Of a stretch of 59,411 nt of DNA, positions 5,087 to 33,317 are shown piece after piece (position 1 is the stretch's first letter; each line of letters starts with the position of its first letter). The notes under the pieces are model-generated. The model had not been told where the DNA came from. It saw only the letters and a program-made list of their open reading frames with translations, and ran no database searches. Made by a program: the position numbers and the translations under genes. Origin of the DNA: an uncultured Bacteriovoracaceae bacterium (GTDB lineage Bacteria > Bdellovibrionota > Bacteriovoracia > Bacteriovoracales > Bacteriovoracaceae); NCBI GenBank assembly GCA_950054155.1, contig CATLOT010000022.1:1-59411 (forward strand). Reading direction: 5' to 3'.

Positions 5087-5572
5087 ATGACTAGTATCTA
5101 TGACTTTTCAGTAAGAACAATCGACTCCACCGAGGTCTCATTAAAAGAGTATGAAGGTAAGGTAATTCTCGTGGTTAATGTCGCCAGTAAATGTGGATTC
5201 ACTCCTCAGTACACAGGCCTAGAAGAACTCTATAAGAAATATAAAGACCAAGGCTTCACTATACTTGCCTTTCCCTGCAACCAGTTTGGACGCCAAGAAC
5301 CAGGAGATGCTGAAGAAATCAAGTCATTTTGTAGCCTCACCTATGATGTGACCTTCCCCCTCTTTAGTAAAGTAGACGTCAATGGAAAGGACGAAGAGCC
5401 CCTTTTTAAGCACCTTAAGAAAGAGGCACCAGGTCTTCTTGGCAGCAAGGCCATTAAGTGGAATTTCACTAAATTTCTCATTGGTAAAAAGGGAGAGGTC
5501 ATCAAGCGCTATGCTCCAAAAGATAAGCCCGAGGATCTTAATCAGGATATAGCGAAGGCACTATCCTCTTGA
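5087..5572 (+). CDS. Glutathione peroxidase (BtuE/Gpx family, Cys type)
   Basis: Thiol peroxidase of 161 residues reducing hydrogen or lipid peroxides in the cytoplasm. It has the family run NVASKCGFTPQY with a Cys codon (TGT) at the peroxidatic position, the motif LAFPCNQFGRQEPG carrying a likely resolving Cys and the Gln, and WNFTKFLI with the active-site Trp and Asn. Bacterial members of this kind often use thioredoxin rather than glutathione. The ATG follows AAGGGG. It diverges from moxR and precedes the CBS and B12-regulator genes, so it may belong to a stress-defence neighbourhood; that link is inferred. Confidence 0.95.
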   Translation: MTSIYDFSVRTIDSTEVSLKEYEGKVILVVNVASKCGFTPQYTGLEELYKKYKDQGFTILAFPCNQFGRQEPGDAEEIKSFCSLTYDVTFPLFSKVDVNGKDEEPLFKHLKKEAPGLLGSKAIKWNFTKFLIGKKGEVIKRYAPKDKPEDLNQDIAKALSS

Positions 5573-6131: not shown

Positions 6132-7082
6132 CTAAAGCGCCTTTAGATACTTATCAAAATCCGCCATGCTCTCCACAAATTGTCCCGATCCCGTCAAAAG
6201 AGTTTTATCCACATGACTATTGCCCCCTACGATAAGTTTAACTTTAGGGAGTTTACGAAGTACTGAATTTATATAGGTATTCACAAACCCAATAGGCTTC
6301 GTCTCAGGGGCTATCGTAGAGCCAAGTAAAATTGTATTCACCTCTAAAGAATGAACGGCATCAATGAGACTCTCAAGGGGAAGGTTGGGCCCTAAGTAGA
6401 AATAAGGGACGTTATAGTGGCGGCAAAGAAGGGCCCCCATAAGAATCCCAAACTCATGAAAGTCCCCTTCTGGAGCACTAATGACAATCCTTGCATTCTT
6501 TGTACTCTTCGATGTTTGATTATTATAAAGTAAGTGGCCGATATGAAATTTTAAGATTGCAGAGAGTGCGTGCTCTTGGGAAATATTTAACTTTCCCTCG
6601 TGCACGGCCATCCCAACCTTCGTCAATAAAGGCGAAATGATATCTAAGGCAAAGTCGCGCGGATTCAAGAGAAGCTTGAGCTTACTAATTTCATGAGAAA
6701 TCACATCGAGCTTGTAACACTCCAAAGCGAGATAGAGGTTTTGTAAACTCTGAGTGGTGTTCACCGGCTCTTTTACAAGAGAGAGCTCATCACCAGAGGT
6801 GACAGAGTTCGCTTTCTTTCCAAGTTTCTCAAGAAGAACGCGAAGCTCACTTCTTGGTAATCCCGCAATCTTTCCAATGGTGTGGCCAAGCGTACAGAGC
6901 TCTGAGAGAAGTGTGAGTTTATCAATATCATCATCACTATACTCACGACGCCCATTGTGACTTCTTTGAGGAACAACCGCTTGATAGCGCTTTTCCCAGG
7001 CCCTAATGGTGTGAATTCCCACTCCCGAAATTTTAGATGCGAGTTGTATGCTGTATTGTCCTTGTGAACTTTCTTTTGTCAT
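6132..7082 (-). CDS. MerR-family regulator with cobalamin-binding domain (CarH/LitR-like)
   Basis: Transcription factor of about 316 residues. An N-terminal MerR winged helix (YSIQLASKISGVGIHTIRAW, then EKRYQAVVPQR) is followed by a helical B12-associated domain and a Rossmann cobalamin-binding domain with the axial-His motif DFHEFG. CarH/LitR proteins use adenosylcobalamin as a light sensor and repress photoprotective genes in the dark. The EH pair of the upper-face motif is present (NISQEHALS), but the Trp expected ten residues before that Glu in CarH is Val. AdoCbl photochemistry is therefore uncertain. The ATG at 7082, with GGGG upstream, is chosen because a 16-codon N-terminal extension to 7130 would overlap the predicted promoter. 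Confidence 0.9.
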   Translation of the reverse strand: MTKESSQGQYSIQLASKISGVGIHTIRAWEKRYQAVVPQRSHNGRREYSDDDIDKLTLLSELCTLGHTIGKIAGLPRSELRVLLEKLGKKANSVTSGDELSLVKEPVNTTQSLQNLYLALECYKLDVISHEISKLKLLLNPRDFALDIISPLLTKVGMAVHEGKLNISQEHALSAILKFHIGHLLYNNQTSKSTKNARIVISAPEGDFHEFGILMGALLCRHYNVPYFYLGPNLPLESLIDAVHSLEVNTILLGSTIAPETKPIGFVNTYINSVLRKLPKVKLIVGGNSHVDKTLLTGSGQFVESMADFDKYLKAL

Positions 7083-7101
7083 CGTATTGCCCCTTTTCTC
7101 A

Positions 7102-7130
7102 ATAATAGAGGTTTTGACGACTATGTACAA
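7102..7130 (-). promoter_or_regulatory. Promoter of the B12-regulator gene with TGTACA operator-like palindrome
   Basis: On the minus strand, TTGTAC (7130-7125), a 17-base spacer and TATTAT (7107-7102) make a good sigma-70 promoter. The palindrome TGTACA at 7124-7129 overlaps the -35. CarH/LitR operators contain TGTACA-like elements, so autorepression is likely. I found no second copy in a neighbouring promoter. Confidence 0.55.
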
Positions 7131-7173
7131 GTGTTGTCTAGGTTATTCATTTCTCCCTTCTAACCTCTTTCAT

Positions 7174-7202
7174 TTGGGTCATGACTCAATAAAAGATACA
7201 AT
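7174..7202 (+). promoter_or_regulatory. Possible promoter of the YfcH-like gene, implying a leaderless mRNA
   Basis: TTGGGT at 7174-7179, a 17-base spacer and TACAAT at 7197-7202. Transcription would begin at about 7209, the A of the start codon. No Shine-Dalgarno sequence precedes that codon, consistent with a leaderless message. The -35 is weak. Confidence 0.35.
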
Positions 7203-7208
7203 AATCTC

Positions 7209-8117
7209 ATGAAAATACTTATCACCGGAGGTACTGGTTTCGTCGGCCAGAGACTCGTAAAAAAATTGTATCAAAGTGGTCATGAGGCGGTGATCACTAC
7301 CCGTAACGCTCAAAGGGCCCGAGCTAAGGAAGACACCCAAGCTCACTTTGTTGAGTGGGATTATAAGAACGAGGACTTCCCCTCTGGCGCTCTTGAAGGC
7401 ATTGATGGAATCATCAACCTGATGGGAGAGAATATTTCTAACAAGCGCTGGAGTGACTCGCAAAAAAAGAAAATTTACGACTCTCGTGTGCTTGCAACTA
7501 AGAAACTTGTCGAGGCCTGTGAAACGACTCTTTCTGAACCTCTTGATTTTTTCATCTCTGGCTCTGCCATTGGGATCTATCCCGCCAATACCGATGAAAC
7601 TCTCGTGGAAACCAGCCCTACAGCAAGTGGTTTTCTTCCTGACGTCTGTAAGGACTGGGAGGCTGAAGCCCTTAAAATAACCAAAACAAAGAGAACTGTC
7701 ATATGCCGAACAGGCGTCGTTCTTGGTCCGGAATCAGGGGCACTCTCTAAGCTCCTTCCCCTTTTTAAGCTCGGAGCAGGTGGTCCGATAGGTTCAGGTA
7801 AAATGGTCATGAGCTGGATTCACGTAGAGGACTTAGTAAAGGCCCTTATTACCTTTAGTGAGGGAGAGAAGTTTCAAGGCATCTACAATCTCGTTGCTCC
7901 TAACCCTGTCCCCAATAAAGAATTCACGAAGGCCCTCGCCAAAGCAGTTCATAGACCAGCGATTTTTCCGGCACCGCCCTTTATGCTGAAACTCGTCTTT
8001 GGGGAGATGAGTTCTATCATTCTTGACTCCCAGACGATCATCCCACAAAAGCTCAACGAAGAGGGCTTTCAGTTTGATCACCCTGAAATTTATGAGGCCC
8101 TTCAAGACCTCACCTAA
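7209..8117 (+). CDS. SDR-family epimerase, TIGR01777/YfcH type
   Basis: Extended short-chain dehydrogenase-like protein of 302 residues with an N-terminal nucleotide-binding motif (ITGGTGFVGQRLV), the family run NLMGENISNKRWSD, FISGSAIGIYP, the motif RTGVVLGPESGALSKLLP, and SWIHVEDLVKAL. Its biochemical reaction is not known to me. YfcH-like genes recur beside photolyases and B12 MerR regulators in light-responsive gene sets of several proteobacteria, and here it diverges from just such a regulator. No ribosome site precedes the ATG. Membership of the light/oxidative stress set is inferred from this context. Confidence 0.9.
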   Translation: MKILITGGTGFVGQRLVKKLYQSGHEAVITTRNAQRARAKEDTQAHFVEWDYKNEDFPSGALEGIDGIINLMGENISNKRWSDSQKKKIYDSRVLATKKLVEACETTLSEPLDFFISGSAIGIYPANTDETLVETSPTASGFLPDVCKDWEAEALKITKTKRTVICRTGVVLGPESGALSKLLPLFKLGAGGPIGSGKMVMSWIHVEDLVKALITFSEGEKFQGIYNLVAPNPVPNKEFTKALAKAVHRPAIFPAPPFMLKLVFGEMSSIILDSQTIIPQKLNEEGFQFDHPEIYEALQDLT

Positions 8118-8200: not shown

Positions 8201-8302
8201 AGTTCATCCCCGCGGCACGTCTGTTATCAACTCCGTCTTCAAGGAGCTCTCTGGTTTTATAACTAGGATCTCCTTATGAAAGACGTTGGAGAGGAGAAAC
8301 AG

Positions 8303-9409
8303 ATGAGAGCATATCCTTTGATATCCTTTTTACCAGTACTACTTTTGGTGGGAAGCTGTGCAGGTCCAACCAATCCCTTTGGCAATGAAGGGCTCACCCT
8401 TCCGCCCAAGATTGGTCACAGTGATCTGCCTATTTCGATAAGATCTGTTAGCAGTGTCACGGAGGACTTTAACGTAGACCCGGTCTCAATTCATTTCTCC
8501 CCCAAGAAAATGAACTTCCACCAAACACGAGACTTTAAAGTTCATATTCATGATCCCAATGGAGTGGGTCCCCTTTCGCTTATAAAGTTTTATTACAATA
8601 AAAGAGACCTCACTTCCCAGTGGATGAATAAGGCTAAAGTGACTAAAGATACGCATTCAAAAAATGTCACTATCGCTTTTAGTGGTCTTAAACTTCCCGC
8701 CAGCCGTGATCATGATATCATTGTTAAATATCAACACGGTCATAATCATCACTTTTCTCTAGCAAAATACGAAAGCCCCGACTGTTCGATGACATCTCTA
8801 GACCCTCTCGGAGAGCTCACGCCCTTCTCTAAAGGAATCACTCGTCAATATGAACCCCTCATTGAGGGACTAAGTAGCCAGGAGGGTGTCAATCCAAGCA
8901 TGGTAGCAGGCCTTATTGCCCAAGAGTCTGCCTTTAATCCCAGGGCGGTCTCCTTTGCCAAGGCCATCGGCCTCACTCAAGTCACGAGTGGTGCTTCACA
9001 GGAGATCGTCTCAAACTTTGAGCATTTCCCCGTTTACCCTGAGATTCAAGAAATTCCAGTTCCTCTTATTAAGACCCTCATTCTTTCAGGAAAACTCAAT
9101 CAACAAAATGAATGGCGCCTTCATCCTCGCTACTCAATCCTTGGTGGCATCCACTATCTCAAAAGACTTGAAGACTATTGGTTTCGCGGTGAAACTCAAA
9201 AAATCATCCATACCGTTTTTCCGGGCCGAGGTGATGAGGTTCTAGATGACATCATTCTTGCCAGTTACAATAGTGGTCCCTTTCGTGTCAAAAAATCCTT
9301 GAAAGCAAGAGGTAAAGATTGGCTCAATGCCCATGATCTCACTGAAGCGAAGAAATACGTCAAGAAGGTGAAAAGCTACTGCTACCACTTTGCGGCTAAT
9401 CATCAATAA
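8303..9409 (+). CDS. Lipoprotein lytic murein transglycosylase (SLT domain)
   Basis: Exported peptidoglycan-cleaving enzyme of 368 residues. The chosen ATG at 8303 has GGAGAGGAG upstream and opens a clean lipoprotein signal (RAYPLISFLPVLLLVGSC), better than an ATG 27 bases earlier. Residues about 20-180 are a low-similarity region. The SLT domain follows, with the catalytic Glu in LIAQESAFNPRA, then AIGLTQVTSGAS, ILGGIHYLKRL and LASYNSGP. It would cut glycan strands to 1,6-anhydro products. An AmpG-type permease for such products is encoded at 48.3-49.5 kb, suggesting recycling or uptake of wall fragments. Confidence 0.93.
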   Translation: MRAYPLISFLPVLLLVGSCAGPTNPFGNEGLTLPPKIGHSDLPISIRSVSSVTEDFNVDPVSIHFSPKKMNFHQTRDFKVHIHDPNGVGPLSLIKFYYNKRDLTSQWMNKAKVTKDTHSKNVTIAFSGLKLPASRDHDIIVKYQHGHNHHFSLAKYESPDCSMTSLDPLGELTPFSKGITRQYEPLIEGLSSQEGVNPSMVAGLIAQESAFNPRAVSFAKAIGLTQVTSGASQEIVSNFEHFPVYPEIQEIPVPLIKTLILSGKLNQQNEWRLHPRYSILGGIHYLKRLEDYWFRGETQKIIHTVFPGRGDEVLDDIILASYNSGPFRVKKSLKARGKDWLNAHDLTEAKKYVKKVKSYCYHFAANHQ

Positions 9410-9423
9410 CAAGGCTAAGGTTT

Positions 9424-10158
9424 ATGAAAACGAAACCCATTATTTTTAATTTCCTCTTTGTGTTCTTTACGTTCATAGCCGTGAGTTTACCTTTGCAGGT
9501 GGCCTTTCTCTATGAGCATAGTCTGACCTCTTTTTCAGAATGGGCCTCAATAGCGATGAAGCTCTCTCCTCTTAACTGGATGGTCCTCACTCTGTGCCTT
9601 ATTAATGGCTATCTTTGTTACCAAACCAACCCTTTTATAAAGTACCCCACCCCCGCCAGTATTCTTCTCGTGGGGGTGAATAATTTCGTTGTCGGGGCAT
9701 GGGGAGTGGACTACCACTTTGTCCTAACTTGGGTAGCGACACTGGTCTACACTCTCTTTAGCTACAGCTTTGTCTATGCCCATGGCCTTGAAGCAATAGA
9801 GCATCCTGAAAAACAATGGTGGAAAATTCCGACTCGCTACCAACGCTCCTTTCCCGTGTGGGTAGAATGGCAGGGAAAGAGAAAGCTCCTGGCCAAAACT
9901 TTTGATATTTCAAAGTCTGGTGCCTATATCGCCGCTTTGGCCAATAGTAAAAACCTACTGCCTAGTGACCTCAAAATCGGAGAGCATATCAAAGTTCTTA
10001 TTGGCACCGATAGTGGGGAGCTTGAACTTCAGGCGACCTTGGTGCGCAAAGAGAAAGAGTCTCTAGGTCACTATCCCGCGGGCCTTGGTGTTCACTTTAA
10101 CAATCTCAGCTTTGCTCAGTCGCAAAAGCTAAGACGCCTGCTTCATGTGGCCCATTAA
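9424..10158 (+). CDS. Membrane protein with C-terminal PilZ domain
   Basis: Protein of 244 residues with about four N-terminal membrane segments (residues 5-125) and a cytoplasmic PilZ domain (about 135-240). The c-di-GMP motifs are recognisable: RYQRSF for the Arg-containing loop and FDISKSGAYIA for the D-x-S-x-x-G motif, with GVHFNNLS further on. It probably responds to c-di-GMP at the inner membrane; the output is unknown. It starts 14 bases after the transglycosylase stop behind AAGG, so the two are likely co-transcribed. A second PilZ protein in this window is the FliG fusion at 47.1-48.3 kb. Confidence 0.88.
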   Translation: MKTKPIIFNFLFVFFTFIAVSLPLQVAFLYEHSLTSFSEWASIAMKLSPLNWMVLTLCLINGYLCYQTNPFIKYPTPASILLVGVNNFVVGAWGVDYHFVLTWVATLVYTLFSYSFVYAHGLEAIEHPEKQWWKIPTRYQRSFPVWVEWQGKRKLLAKTFDISKSGAYIAALANSKNLLPSDLKIGEHIKVLIGTDSGELELQATLVRKEKESLGHYPAGLGVHFNNLSFAQSQKLRRLLHVAH

Positions 10159-10213: not shown

Positions 10214-11650
10214 ATGAACTCTACCAAAGGATGCCTCTTGTCAAAAGCTCTCGTCTGGTTGCGTCGCGATCTTCGCCTCTATGACCACCATGCCCTCTCT
10301 GCTGCCCTTAAAGATCATGATGAGGTCTACCTATGCTTTGTCTTTGATAAACTCATTCTCGACAAGCTTCCAAAGGAAGACAAGCGCCTTACCTTCATCC
10401 ATCAAGGCCTGGAAGAGATCTCACAAGATCTCAGTAAACATCAAAGCGACATCCATATCCTCCATGGAGACCCTACTGAAGAAGTACCCAAGCTCTTTAA
10501 AAAGCTAAAGTGTGATGCCCTCTATCTTAATCGGGATTACGAACCTTACGCTCAAAAAAGAGATGAGAGTGTTCATAAGGAGATCAAAAAGCTTGGGGGA
10601 AGCTGCAAAATTTTTAAAGATATTGTCTTCTACGAAAAGGGTGAAATTTTAAACAAACAAGGTGAAGTCTATAAAGTCTTTACTCCCTACAAGAAGGCCT
10701 GGCTTGAAAAATTTAACGACACCTATGGTGGCGTCGTCCCTCAGTTTAAAGTTAATTTAAAAAATCTCGCAAAGGTCACAGATCTTAAAAAGTCGATAAA
10801 AGATCATGACTGGCATAAGACTCTTGGTTTTAAAGAAGACCCTGCCCTTCTCACGGGTGGAGTAAAAGAGGCTAAGAAACATCTCAAAGAATTCAAAAAA
10901 GTTATTGATGATTATGAAAAGGCACGTGACTTTCCGGCCATGAAGGGAACATCTCATCTCAGTCCCTATATCCGCTTTGGAATGATCAGCATTAGAGAGC
11001 TCTTAAAAGTAGGGATTGAGGGAGGTCATAAAGTGTGGACCAGTGAACTCATATGGCGTGAGTTCTATCAAATGATCCTCTCCCAATTTCCCCACGTTGA
11101 GAAAAAATCCTATCGCCCTGAATACGACAATATAAAGTGGCGTGGTAAAAAGAAAGAATTTGAAGCCTGGAAGGAAGGTATGACAGGTTTTCCTCTCATT
11201 GATGCCTCCATGCGCTGCTTTAAAGAAACGGGTATGATGCATAACCGTCTTCGTATGGTTGTCGCGAGTTTTCTTTGCAAGACCCTCCTTGTGGACTGGA
11301 AAAAAGGAGAAGAGTACTTTGCCCAAAAGCTACTCGACTTTGATCTTGCGGCCAACAACGGCGGCTGGCAGTGGTGCTCCTCAAGTGGCACAGATGCCCA
11401 GCCCTACTTTCGTATCTTCAATCCCACCACTCAAAGTGAAAAGTTTGACCCTGATGCAGAGTTTATTAAAGAGTGGTGTCCAGAACTTAAGGGCTTTTCT
11501 AAGAAGAAAATTCACGCTCCTTGGAACGCTGACATGATCGAACAAAGCGAAGCCTCTTGCACGATTGGCGAAGACTATCCCTGTCCCGTGGTGGATTATA
11601 AAGAGAAACGTCATGAAGCGCTTGAAATGTATAAAGAGGGCTTAAAATAG
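10214..11650 (+). CDS. phrB: Deoxyribodipyrimidine photolyase (class I, cryptochrome/photolyase family)
   Basis: FAD-dependent repair of UV pyrimidine dimers, 478 residues. The N-terminal antenna domain starts with ALVWLRRDLRLYDHHAL. The C-terminal FAD domain shows SHLSPYIRFGMIS, SELIWREFYQMIL, the dimer-binding run GFPLIDASMRCFKETGMMHN, and DFDLAANNGGWQWCSSSGTD. These fit a CPD photolyase rather than a signalling cryptochrome. A TTG at 10238 with AAAGGA 6 bases upstream is an alternative start that would place ALVW at the family-typical N-terminus. It ends with a 9-bp convergent overlap with mgtE. The CarH-like regulator 3 kb upstream makes light-linked control plausible. Confidence 0.93.
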   Translation: MNSTKGCLLSKALVWLRRDLRLYDHHALSAALKDHDEVYLCFVFDKLILDKLPKEDKRLTFIHQGLEEISQDLSKHQSDIHILHGDPTEEVPKLFKKLKCDALYLNRDYEPYAQKRDESVHKEIKKLGGSCKIFKDIVFYEKGEILNKQGEVYKVFTPYKKAWLEKFNDTYGGVVPQFKVNLKNLAKVTDLKKSIKDHDWHKTLGFKEDPALLTGGVKEAKKHLKEFKKVIDDYEKARDFPAMKGTSHLSPYIRFGMISIRELLKVGIEGGHKVWTSELIWREFYQMILSQFPHVEKKSYRPEYDNIKWRGKKKEFEAWKEGMTGFPLIDASMRCFKETGMMHNRLRMVVASFLCKTLLVDWKKGEEYFAQKLLDFDLAANNGGWQWCSSSGTDAQPYFRIFNPTTQSEKFDPDAEFIKEWCPELKGFSKKKIHAPWNADMIEQSEASCTIGEDYPCPVVDYKEKRHEALEMYKEGLK

Positions 11651-28076: not shown

Positions 28077-28472
28077 ATGCTTAGTATCACTTCATTTTAT
28101 GCCGGTTGTTTAGGAATTCTTTATTTAGGCCTAAGTTTTAATGTTATTCGTAATCGCTGGAAGTTTCGCCAAAGCTTAGGAAGTGGAAGTGAGGCCCAAC
28201 TTGAAAAATCAATCCGCATTCATGGAAACTTTTCTGAATACGTTCCTCTCATCGTCATTATGATGGCCCTTTTAGAGCTCAATAAAGAGAGTGTTAATCT
28301 TCTTCATTCATTTGGTATTATGCTCATTGTGGGAAGGCTTCTCCATGCTTATGGAATTGCGATTAAAAAAGTCCCCAATCCCTACCGCATTATTGGTATG
28401 TCTCTGACTTTTATTTGCATGATTGGTTCAAGTATTAAGCTTATTTTCTCAGCTCTTAATAACGGATTCTAA
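28077..28472 (+). CDS. MAPEG-family membrane protein
   Basis: Four-helix membrane protein of 131 residues related to MAPEG glutathione-dependent enzymes and E. coli YecN. It has the family run EKSIRIHGNFSEYVPLIVIM with the conserved Arg, Asn and Glu, and the later GRLLHAYG. A glutathione-transferase or peroxidase role is possible but unproven for bacterial members. GGAGGAAGA precedes the ATG. It overlaps the 3' end of the convergent prepilin gene by 4 bp. Confidence 0.88.
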   Translation: MLSITSFYAGCLGILYLGLSFNVIRNRWKFRQSLGSGSEAQLEKSIRIHGNFSEYVPLIVIMMALLELNKESVNLLHSFGIMLIVGRLLHAYGIAIKKVPNPYRIIGMSLTFICMIGSSIKLIFSALNNGF

Positions 28473-29491
28473 AAGCAAGAAAAATCACACTCTAATGCAT
28501 GGCCAGGAGTTGCTCTTAACATTAGGTTAAAATGAGCCCTCTGGCCTTGTATCCCCTCTAACTTTGCCTGAACCGAGCACTTTCCTTGTACTCCTTGCAT
28601 ACGCTCAAGCCTACAATAGGAAAACCTTTCTTTAGTAAGCTCTGTTTTAAGCGAAGAGCCCGTACCCTTCAGCCTATAGCTGCGTTTTTCACTTAGTGGC
28701 TGTTCAACACTTGAAATCGAAATCCAAGAATTCCGCTCGCAACGAAAAAGGTTGTCCTCTTTAAAAAAGTAAACAATCACATTTTCATTTGAGGTATCAC
28801 ACACACTTTCTTCTTTTGAGGAGGCCCAAAAAATTGCTCCCCCTTCGACGGCCAGTCGTGCTTGGGTTGAAACTTGTCCAATCTCTACCTTTTCTCCACC
28901 AAAGAAAGCAAATTCACTTTCCTCTCTGACTCCCTTTGCCCAAGGACCAGTAATTCGTCCTCCACCTCCCTCACTATGAAGGCCTGGGCTTGATTCACAC
29001 TCCACAATTCTTCCCAGTTCATTGGCAGTAATTCTCAAAGGAAACTCTCCAGTATAACTTTGAACTCCACCTTTTTCCTTAAACTTAATTTTTACTAGGT
29101 TGTAATCATTTAAGTTTTCAAAACCACTTTGATCCCCAAAAATTTCAATAGAACTGATGTGGACATTTCCCTGGCCATATACCTTTGCGACGCTACTAAA
29201 GTCCTCACTTGTTTCATATTCAGCCATTGTTTGACCACTTACACTCTCAATTTTGTTGATGGAAGGCACTTCATCATAGACGACGCTCTTGCCACCAAAA
29301 GTGGACTTACAAGAAAGTGGATCACTTAATAAGCTTTTCATTTCATCCAAAACAACCATACTCTCAAAGAGAAAGGAGGAACTTTTGCCAAGCTTGGTTT
29401 GGGATTCAAAAATCTTAAATCCAGAAAGAATAATGAGACCAAGTAAACCTAAACTTACAAATACCTGGACTAATGAAAAGCCTCTATTCAT
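28469..29491 (-). CDS. Type IV prepilin-like protein (third of three tandem genes)
   Basis: Minor-pilin/pseudopilin-like protein of 340 residues. It begins MNRG then FSLVQVFVSLGLLG, a class III prepilin signal cut after Gly, followed by a hydrophobic helix. Position 5 of the mature protein is Gln rather than Glu. The C-terminal part has the motif NLFRCERNSWISI, shared with its two neighbours, and ends CDFSCF. The ATG at 29491 has GAGAGG 7 bases upstream and overlaps the preceding gene by 8 bp. It probably forms part of a pilus or pseudopilus tip. The prepilin peptidase and assembly genes are elsewhere. Confidence 0.85.
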   Translation of the reverse strand: MNRGFSLVQVFVSLGLLGLIILSGFKIFESQTKLGKSSSFLFESMVVLDEMKSLLSDPLSCKSTFGGKSVVYDEVPSINKIESVSGQTMAEYETSEDFSSVAKVYGQGNVHISSIEIFGDQSGFENLNDYNLVKIKFKEKGGVQSYTGEFPLRITANELGRIVECESSPGLHSEGGGGRITGPWAKGVREESEFAFFGGEKVEIGQVSTQARLAVEGGAIFWASSKEESVCDTSNENVIVYFFKEDNLFRCERNSWISISSVEQPLSEKRSYRLKGTGSSLKTELTKERFSYCRLERMQGVQGKCSVQAKLEGIQGQRAHFNLMLRATPGHALECDFSCF

Positions 29492-30251
29492 CAAAAAACC
29501 TCTCATCCTCGAGAGCTACCTCTCCCCTCTGAGTACACAACATCCATTTTGCCCTCCGAGGACTATAATAAAGAACACCTCGTGAAGTTGGACTACATTG
29601 ACCAAGAGGACTCGTCACAAATAGCCCTCCTTCAATATTCAATTTCCCCTTAAGGTTTTGGGCTTTTAGGTTGACAAAACCTGAGTCAAAAACCAAAGCA
29701 TCCCCTACCTGACGCCATACACTCTTTCCCTCCGTAAAAGGCACTAATGAACAGTCTGTGATAACGCCATTGGTATCCTTCGTAAAAATACGAATCGTTC
29801 TCGTCATACTTTCTTTAAGATTCGATCTCTTAAAATGAACGGACAAATAGGTACGGTCACTTCTCACAGGCATATCACGAAGCTGAGGATTAAGTTCAAA
29901 ACCCTCGAGTTCCAGACCAGTTTCACTAATATCTGCTCCTTGACCCCTTTCAGTGCTAAAGGACTCTTCAATTGAACTGGTTCCATCGATAAAATTAACA
30001 ATATTATTGAGCTTTGTGATTTCCCCGAGAGGAGTTATTCGCGAAAACCCAGCAAGGTTCTCTCGACATCCTACACCCATTAAAATATTTCTCATTTTAT
30101 GAACAAGAGAGGTTACTTCAATATTTTGATTTACCTTAATAACCATTCTCTTTTGTCTCATCATCATTTGATAACAGAAGAAAACGACTATCCCTAAGAA
30201 GGCTACTGACAAAAGAAGCTCGATAGAAGAAACACGACCCTTATTGGACAC
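29484..30251 (-). CDS. Type IV prepilin-like protein (second of three tandem genes)
   Basis: Protein of 255 residues with a degenerate prepilin N-terminus: MSNKGR then VSSIELLLSVAFLGIVV. The Glu is retained, but the residue before the hydrophobic helix is Arg, so processing after Gly would leave Glu at position 6. A C-terminal motif YYSPRRAKWMLCTQRG matches the pattern seen in both neighbouring genes. The start is GTG with GAGG upstream, overlapping the first gene by 11 bp. The tight overlaps indicate one operon and stoichiometric synthesis, as for minor pilins. Pseudopilin of a secretion system is the alternative. Confidence 0.78.
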   Translation of the reverse strand: MSNKGRVSSIELLLSVAFLGIVVFFCYQMMMRQKRMVIKVNQNIEVTSLVHKMRNILMGVGCRENLAGFSRITPLGEITKLNNIVNFIDGTSSIEESFSTERGQGADISETGLELEGFELNPQLRDMPVRSDRTYLSVHFKRSNLKESMTRTIRIFTKDTNGVITDCSLVPFTEGKSVWRQVGDALVFDSGFVNLKAQNLKGKLNIEGGLFVTSPLGQCSPTSRGVLYYSPRRAKWMLCTQRGEVALEDERFFDE

Positions 30252-31257
30252 AGGCTACCTCACAGATATTCTTTGTCGCTAAAGCATTTGTATAAGCCGT
30301 AATTTTGTACTCACTTATGACACTCTTGCTAAGCCGCTCCACTTTACATCCATCTCCTAAATTTCGTCTTTCTTGAGATTTAAGATAACAATAGCGGTGA
30401 CCCAAGGTTTTACGACTCTTACTTCCGTTTTGGCCAAGAGTTACTTCATAGATTTTAGGTTTTTGAAATTGAATGGGATTAAGACCAAAAGCCACCCATC
30501 TCCCTTGTCGGCAAAATCTCAACTCGCCTTTTATATTCTTAAGTACTCCTTCCTCGAGGTCATGACAAGGCCTCATATCTTCGCGCTCTAAAAATAGCTC
30601 ACCTGCTACTTGAAGTTGACCAGACGACTGAATTTTTTCGCCCACTCGTAATTTGAGATTACTCAGCTTTATTGACTTATCTTTTATTTTCCAAAATTTA
30701 TCACTAGCAGTTTTTTGATTTAAAAGTCCTGAATGACATGACAGTATCCGACCATTACGATCTTCAACAAAGAGAATAGGAACCTTTTTAACCAGTTTCC
30801 TCTTATCTCGTTTAATTTGCATTTTAACAAGAAGATGACTCATTCCCTTTTTCAGGTTTTCAGAAATATGAGCCTGTGAAAGTTCATAGGAAAGTATTTC
30901 TAACTTTGAATCAAAATAAGAATGAGATCCCTTCTCACTCACGGGAAAATGAAGATGATTGATTTTTTCTCCACTTTTCTTTTTTGATTTTCGTTTGATC
31001 ACATCAAAAGTTCCGGCACTCGGACTCAAGCCTTTTAAAGTTAAAGAACAGCTTTCAGGTTGTGATAGCAAAGACTCGATTTCTTGAGTTAAATACTCTC
31101 CAAGATAATTCTCTGCGGTCTTAAATGCTAAGTTTTTTTGATCCTCTGCCAAACGAAGCCCAACCAAGGCAAGACCTGCAATAGCCGTCGAGGCCATCAA
31201 AACTTGAATTAGACTTAAACCAGACTCATTTAAGTGTCTTGAAATTAATTTTTTCAT
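30241..31257 (-). CDS. Type IV prepilin-like protein (first of three tandem genes)
   Basis: Protein of 338 residues. A basic leader ends in ESG, then the mature helix LSLIQVLMASTAIAGLALVG, with Gln at position 5 as in the third gene. A long middle region of predicted beta structure follows. The C-terminal motif is GELRFCRQGRWVAFG, and the last residues carry a Cys pair (NICEVACVQ). The ATG at 31257 is chosen over the TTG one codon earlier. The promoter must lie in the short gap shared with the divergent lipoprotein gene. The family is clear from the N-terminus; the role is inferred. Confidence 0.83.
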   Translation of the reverse strand: MKKLISRHLNESGLSLIQVLMASTAIAGLALVGLRLAEDQKNLAFKTAENYLGEYLTQEIESLLSQPESCSLTLKGLSPSAGTFDVIKRKSKKKSGEKINHLHFPVSEKGSHSYFDSKLEILSYELSQAHISENLKKGMSHLLVKMQIKRDKRKLVKKVPILFVEDRNGRILSCHSGLLNQKTASDKFWKIKDKSIKLSNLKLRVGEKIQSSGQLQVAGELFLEREDMRPCHDLEEGVLKNIKGELRFCRQGRWVAFGLNPIQFQKPKIYEVTLGQNGSKSRKTLGHRYCYLKSQERRNLGDGCKVERLSKSVISEYKITAYTNALATKNICEVACVQ

Positions 31258-31285
31258 CAACTCTATTATAGATTAAAATAAATTT

Positions 31286-33286: not shown

Positions 33287-33317
33287 AATGTCAAAACTCT
33301 GTAAAGTTGAAGTGAAG

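Follow-up and report, generated by a model that had tools for sequence, protein, structure and literature searches.

Can a CarH-like regulator that lacks the tryptophan capping the adenosyl group of its cobalamin still be a light sensor? This question is raised by a minus-strand gene in a 59,411-nucleotide stretch of DNA (hereafter the window; positions 1 to 59,411 of contig CATLOT010000022.1, assembly GCA_950054155.1) from an uncultured Bacteriovoracaceae bacterium of the order Bacteriovoracales, phylum Bdellovibrionota. A preliminary description of its product had noted valine ten positions ahead of a conserved glutamate, where CarH has Trp, together with an intact axial-His motif (DFHEFG) and Glu-His (EH) pair, and had suggested that the protein may sense another cobalamin form, or may be a redox or B12-status sensor instead of a light sensor. 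Our analysis upholds the residues and speaks against the last clause: we see about an even chance of a light-released repressor that works with cobalamin, most likely adenosylcobalamin (AdoCbl), under a re-packed cap without Trp.

The regulator and its cobalamin-site residues

Read from a TTG start, the open reading frame (ORF) of the regulator covers 6132..7130 (332 amino acids); an ATG at 7082, with AAAAGGGG just upstream, is the likelier start and gives the 316-residue protein used here (6132-7082). The end given in the preliminary description (7208) directly adjoins the start of a divergent short-chain dehydrogenase/reductase (SDR) gene at 7209. Pfam analysis revealed a MerR helix-turn-helix (HTH) at the N-terminus (PF13411, 3.4e-14; PF00376, 2.1e-07), and its B12-binding models gave two matches, both below their cut-offs (22.1 versus 23 and 21.5 versus 32.1). 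The top solved-structure match in phmmer was Thermus CarH (3whp/5c8d; E about 2e-18), and the AlphaFold2 model of the regulator (pLDDT, the predicted local distance difference test score, 89.5) matched the cobalamin domains of photocobilin, Thermus thermophilus CarH (TtCarH) and CtMerR with Z scores of 18.5-21 over 189-207 residues. With the NCBIfam CarH equivalog NF052513 the protein scored 95.9 bits, under the 400-bit cut-off. Taken together, sequence and model place the window protein as a MerR-type regulator with a CarH-type cobalamin domain, in a non-Trp branch of the LitR/CarH family. The same genome encodes a paralogue (G000:C8:84462; L002:1501-2436, plus strand), the HTH of which matches that of the regulator at 48% over 83 amino acids and the C-terminal domain of which has, by eye, no visible axial-His motif.

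In the phmmer alignment, GEAWHRGEIGVAEEH pairs without gaps with GMAVHEGKLNISQEH of TtCarH, so that Val160 takes the position of Trp131, and Glu170, His171 and His209 fall on Glu141, His142 and His177, in agreement with the preliminary description. His161 corresponds to His132 of TtCarH, and the GxxxP residues, the D/ExHx2G axial-His motif and the GG pair (G286 G287) are also retained; the Ser of the SxV/T motif is replaced (Gly254-Ser-Thr). A search for another Trp that might fill the same pocket found none in the cobalamin domain of this chain, the sole Trp of the protein being W29 in the DNA-binding domain, and compensation from elsewhere within the chain was rejected on this ground. As judged by the published criterion, Wx9EH plus the B12 motif, the regulator is no CarH in the strict sense, since its Wx9EH keeps the EH and has Val160 for the Trp.

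Distribution of the branch and retention of the cobalamin site

To the question of whether the loss is a local event the order itself gives an answer. Among its 129 genomes searched, 112 gave a match at E <= 0.001, some through the HTH alone (the paralogue above is one example), and no Trp occupied the Val160 position in any of 82 homologous ORFs from the 80 fetched order loci and the window; the matches left unfetched were lower-ranked ones and many second copies. A scan of named genomes, through which alone other phyla were sampled, was followed for the best 80 of 547 matches. Among these, matches titled Verrucomicrobiota, Poribacteria, Latescibacterota, Acidobacteriota, Gemmatimonadota and others had the Trp, and those titled Bdellovibrionota were without it; no Trp was seen among the 44 rows up to L163. 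Rows L120-L159 were dropped before later counts, being presumed, without one-by-one check, to come from the same genomes as the order set. Three non-Trp rows were oddly titled (L174, a Streptomyces griseus metagenome-assembled genome; L166, Proteobacteria; L168, 'bacterium'), and these, like the order matches titled Proteobacteria or Deltaproteobacteria, we take for mis-binning or old names. The V-type regulator of L174 groups amid Bdellovibrionota rows, and its contig is probably mis-binned.

Across the phylum, 240 genomes were searched and 42 outside the family of the window matched; the 40 loci taken from 39 of these (G229, G261 and G278 omitted) had 30 Val, 4 Ile, 2 Ser, 1 Ala and 3 Trp at the position. 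One genome (G260) carries both types, one Val and one Trp regulator (L221, L238), which suits the two for comparison. After removal of L160, L161, L163, L164, L168 and L172, as also for the axial-His co-occurrence below, the distinct members in which Glu, His and axial His are all intact numbered 95 non-Trp (81 Val, 10 Ile, 3 Ser and 1 Tyr) and 29 Trp-type. In a quick maximum-likelihood tree, built without bootstrap and with the root placed on the Trp side by us, 99 non-Trp rows (four duplicates included; almost all Bdellovibrionota) and the 29 Trp-type rows formed the two sides of one branch, with a support of 95 in the Shimodaira-Hasegawa-like approximate likelihood ratio test (SH-aLRT). A local mutation or chance was rejected on the absence of Trp from the 82 order homologues and on the single clade formed by the intact non-Trp members. 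This clade belongs to Bdellovibrionota in the present sample, which is not proof for all bacteria, and the residues and tree identify the window protein as the Bacteriovoracales representative of a Bdellovibrionota LitR/CarH branch with Val or Ile for the capping Trp. No account of such a branch was found among the papers listed in searches of the open literature, subscription papers lying outside these.

Another position differs between the two groups in the same rows: that of Ala181 is Ile, Leu or Val in 97 of the 99 non-Trp rows versus Ala in 26 of the 29 Trp-type rows. This may compensate the volume of the lost Trp; each group is a single clade, so ancestry alone is perhaps enough. In TtCarH, His132 is the light-state ligand; its position varies in both groups, and the window protein has His there.

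Does the branch still bind cobalamin? The 100 non-Trp members with the axial His all had Glu170 and the Pro of GxxxP, and 95 each had His171 and Val or Ile at 160, versus 16 (Glu170), 11 (Pro), 7 (His171) and 16 (Val or Ile) among the 27 non-Trp members without it. Such retention suggests selection for a cobalamin that is still bound. It also favours, weakly, an adenosyl ligand, because Glu141 of CarH is described as hydrogen-bonding the adenosyl moiety (PMC10442372; this and all papers cited below by PMC number are drawn on in part). On the supply side, an adenosyltransferase of the PduO type, MetH and two mutase-family genes are present in the genome of the window, and the adenosyltransferase adjoins one of the mutase-family genes in a frame of about 1056 amino acids, which by its size and place is probably IcmF-like. 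Both AdoCbl and methylcobalamin (MeCbl) should thus be available, and the cell's repertoire cannot decide the ligand. Absence of an adenosyltransferase as the cause of the Trp loss was rejected, as PF01923 is found in 117 of the 129 order genomes, including that of the window (PF02572, in 5 of 129, is not found there).

Operator-like repeats, neighbouring genes and LOV partners

CarH operators are tandem 11-bp repeats of the form nnnnTnnACAn (PMC9304148; also PMC8156234). Upstream of the regulator, two full TnnACA repeats lie 11 bp apart (Table 1) and a third fails the motif, compared with three or four in CarH operators. In a promoter-like site of the regulator itself (TGTACA-16-TATTAT, 7129-7102), the -35-like hexamer coincides with the second repeat, TGTACA. 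A k-mer scan, which left out 3 of 157 loci for which no start was found, gave TAGACAA in 45 of 125 upstream regions of 160 bp, against 3.4 expected. TnnACA-type pairs at 11 bp occurred in 34 of 123 upstream regions of the V branch, that of the window gene among them (200 shuffles: mean 0.2, maximum 2), and in 12 of 29 of the Trp type, and at other spacings of 7 to 35 bp the V-branch counts were 0-4. The pattern itself was picked after the k-mer scan of the same upstream regions, and the spacing alone is a separate test. Within the window the operator pattern matched twice (the second time at 33289), with 0.25 expected.

The divergent SDR gene opens a plus-strand run of four genes that ends with a photolyase-family gene (Table 1), which possibly shares the SDR promoter. 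Near the 94 intact non-Trp loci (duplicates L163, L164, L168 and L172 removed) we found SDR at 35, lipocalin at 23, photolyase at 22, amine oxidase at 12, DUF1365 at 11 and DUF523/DUF1722 at 10, versus 1, 0, 3, 6, 4 and 0 respectively near the 29 Trp-type loci; the queries were drawn from non-Trp loci, identities are by Pfam, and the genomes are related, so that the counts are not independent. A photolyase at 22 of 94 loci is well above the arithmetic expectation for 8-9 kb in a genome of 3-4 Mb, uncorrected for shared synteny; of 20 relatives, 14 had FAD_binding_7 matches, with 1-4 in each of these genomes. Similarly, Pseudomonas LitR genes are described as flanked by phrB, a short-chain dehydrogenase and an FAD-dependent oxidoreductase (PMC9758184). 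Two further sets of genes were seen in passing. On the 5' side of the regulator, 15 loci (L070, L071, L073, L076, L077, L080-L084, L086, L089-L091 and L099), all without the SDR cluster, have an acetyl-CoA synthetase gene in the opposite orientation, and at 28469-31260 of the window three successive minus-strand genes have N-termini that look pseudopilin-like by eye only.

A further link to light comes from members that have lost the axial His. A LOV-type PAS protein stands beside 6 of the 27 axial-His-less loci versus 0 of 99 others (Fisher p 6e-5 on counts, overstated because the tree shows about three origins). All six share a motif that we take to be the LOV adduct motif (Table 1), and PAS_9 was found in the single LOV-type neighbour scanned with Pfam. 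In about three lineages a B12 light sensor has apparently been exchanged for a flavin one, and the LOV neighbours of such B12-blind members form a natural experiment in swapping light sensors. No LOV match was obtained in the window between 2001 and 12000. In Pseudomonas mendocina, a short LOV protein is similarly paired with a LitR of class II that is considered not to bind B12 (PMC9758184). Neighbourhood, 11-bp repeats and LOV proteins together point to a regulator of light responses, and they speak against the proposal that the window protein is something other than a light sensor.

Table 1 Features of the regulator, its surroundings and the LOV-adjacent loci (window coordinates unless a locus is named)
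Feature	Position	Strand	Basis or remark
V-type CarH/LitR-like regulator; MerR HTH, four-helix bundle and B12-binding Rossmann domain	6132..7082	-	316 aa
Val160 codon (GTG), position of TtCarH Trp131	6603..6605	-	alignment
Glu170-His171, EH pair (TtCarH E141-H142)	6570..6575	-	alignment
His209 in DFHEFG, equivalent of the axial cobalt ligand (TtCarH H177)	6456..6458	-	alignment
Gly254, position of the SxV/T Ser of most Trp-type relatives	6321..6323	-	motif definition of PMC8156234 (drawn on in part)
Putative operator TAGACA-N5-TGTACA, two TnnACA repeats 11 bp apart	7124..7140	-	sequence pattern
Divergent TIGR01777/DUF1731 SDR	7209..8117	+	commonest neighbour cluster of the family, 45/91 loci
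SLT-domain (lytic transglycosylase-like) protein, second in the plus-strand run	8276..9409	+	Pfam
PilZ-domain protein, third in the run	9424..10158	+	Pfam
Photolyase-family protein (PF00875, PF03441), last of the four-gene run	10214..11650	+	Pfam
Glutathione peroxidase family protein, downstream of the regulator on the opposite strand, one gene between	5087..5572	+	Pfam
LOV-adjacent axial-His-less loci L045, L047, L048, L102, L103, L104	e.g. L047:6164-6775	+	xNCRFLQG in all six

Possible mechanisms and comparison with known systems

How might such a protein work? In the reading to which we give an even chance, cobalamin, most likely AdoCbl, would be bound base-off on His209, with Glu170-His171 still contacting the upper ligand and aliphatic residues re-packing the cap. 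In the dark the regulator would repress its own gene and the divergent run of SDR, SLT, PilZ and photolyase genes through the TnnACA repeats between them; in the light the Co-C bond would break and repression would be lifted. The targets would most likely be a set of light-damage genes; carotenoids are an unlikely target here, because the genome of the window has no phytoene synthase match.

Several observations weigh against this light-released repressor. The Wx9EH motif is called absolutely conserved in the CarH homologues studied, and both AdoCbl binding and function are said to depend critically on it (PMC8156234). The fold is shared with AppA and MetH domains (Z 17-18). The SxV/T Ser is Gly in 85 of the 99 non-Trp rows versus Ser in 28 of the 29 Trp-type rows (a changed lower base was rejected as the reason, as two MetH loci and two mutase loci that were read retain the Ser, and nothing points to a change across the genome). 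The stretch has barely more promoter-like sites than shuffled sequence (12 versus 7.8, standard deviation 3.0), and over the whole genome the operator pattern gave 6 sites versus 5 for the reversed control, so that an attempt to read a regulon from it was uninformative. The coupling of EH to the axial His, which switches state at least ten times on the FastTree tree, had a single direction across independent pairs (about 4 to 0) without reaching significance (median p 0.125), and the relatedness behind the neighbour counts belongs here as well. Finally, in CarA of Myxococcus xanthus the B12 motif and the EH are intact, the capping Trp is missing and, in the accounts drawn on, B12 is not needed for function (PMC8156234, PMC9304148); conserved EH and axial His are thus no proof of B12 dependence.

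Of the preliminary proposal that another cobalamin form is sensed, the premise stands, as the Trp cap is truly absent and its absence conserved, and the ligand state may differ; that the regulator in fact responds to a methyl or hydroxo form or to a redox state, its light or oxidative chemistry setting DNA binding, we regard as rather unlikely. A small aliphatic cap would suit a small upper ligand, the bulky Trp is gone across the whole sampled clade, and the MetH activation domain (PF02965), hence probably MeCbl, occurs in 119 of the 129 order genomes. TtCarH, moreover, binds MeCbl without oligomerization, which has been ascribed to the missing bulk and contacts of the adenosyl group, those with W131 included (PMC8221060), so a changed cap could alter which form assembles the protein. 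However, the adenosyl-contacting Glu kept in all 100 axial-His members would be needless for a methyl ligand, the two order MetH loci read have a quite different cap, GDLFGEGKMFLPQVV, and AdoCbl can be made too.

Alternatively, the protein could be a repressor of the cobalamin fold that works without B12 and takes its light signal from some antirepressor or partner, as the example of CarA would allow. The repeated changes of the axial His, with some of the members without it beside LOV proteins, suggest that B12 independence is reachable within the branch. This explanation seems unlikely to us nonetheless, since every axial-His member has Glu170 and the Pro of GxxxP and the others have them less often, as they would if cobalamin mattered to the axial-His members. 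A regulator of SDR and envelope genes that answers to B12 status or redox state, with the photolyase nearby by chance, is very improbable: the SLT and PilZ genes do separate SDR from photolyase, glutathione peroxidase genes, the cluster of which was found at 16 loci, are downstream and on the opposite strand at 15 of them, and the classical CarH carotenoid target is absent with phytoene synthase, but the excess of photolyases, the recurrent lipocalin, DUF523/DUF1722, amine oxidase and DUF1365 genes and the LOV proteins beside axial-His-less members all argue otherwise.

Beyond the light-released repressor of the window, it is possible, as a tentative view that we would not favour outright, that the branch at large senses light with a cap built of Val or Ile and an upper ligand or photochemistry unlike those of CarH, and that B12-blind, LOV-partnered repressors arose from it more than once. 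The need for Trp in B12 light sensing becomes directly testable with a phylum-wide branch that is without it, and mostly without the SxV/T Ser, but has the other tested residues, an operator resembling that of CarH and light-linked neighbours; such a branch could extend the B12 light response to many Bdellovibrionota.

Set beside CarH or class I LitR of T. thermophilus, Bacillus megaterium and M. xanthus, the branch shares the MerR HTH, the four-helix bundle and the B12-binding Rossmann domain, as well as the EH, the axial His, GxxxP and the upstream 11-bp TnnACA direct repeats. It differs in having Val or Ile for Trp131 almost throughout, Gly mostly for the SxV/T Ser and almost always Ile, Leu or Val at Ala181, and the window genome differs in its missing phytoene synthase. 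The Trp of Wx9EH serves to separate CarH from CarA, and the window protein resembles M. xanthus CarA in keeping EH and B12 motif without it (PMC9304148). CarA, however, misses the Trp together with four flanking residues and is confined to Cystobacterineae in that study of myxobacteria (PMC9304148), whereas the V-x9-EH spacing of the window protein is intact and the residue in the branch is mostly a conserved Val or Ile.

Class II LitR with a short LOV protein (PmlR2/PmSB-LOV and PplR of Pseudomonas), as described in the partial accounts used, recalls the branch in its photolyase, short-chain dehydrogenase and FAD oxidoreductase neighbours, in TGTACA-type sites and in the LOV neighbours of some axial-His-less members. 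Unlike the window protein, it has just one of the two B12 domains left, the four-helix bundle, and uses TGTACA-N12-TGTACA sites; the window protein keeps cobalamin site and Rossmann domain, has the 11-bp spacing and has no LOV neighbour that we could find. As read from its sequence, the anatomy of the window protein is thus neither CarA-like, the flank being present, nor that of class II, the cobalamin site being intact. The photocobilins and CtMerR are among its nearest folds by Z score and have EH, GxxH and GxxxP in common with it. Their signature, with which databases are mined for light-responsive cobalamin domains, demands GxxW (PMC11796333), and it would miss the window protein, because the latter has GxxV.
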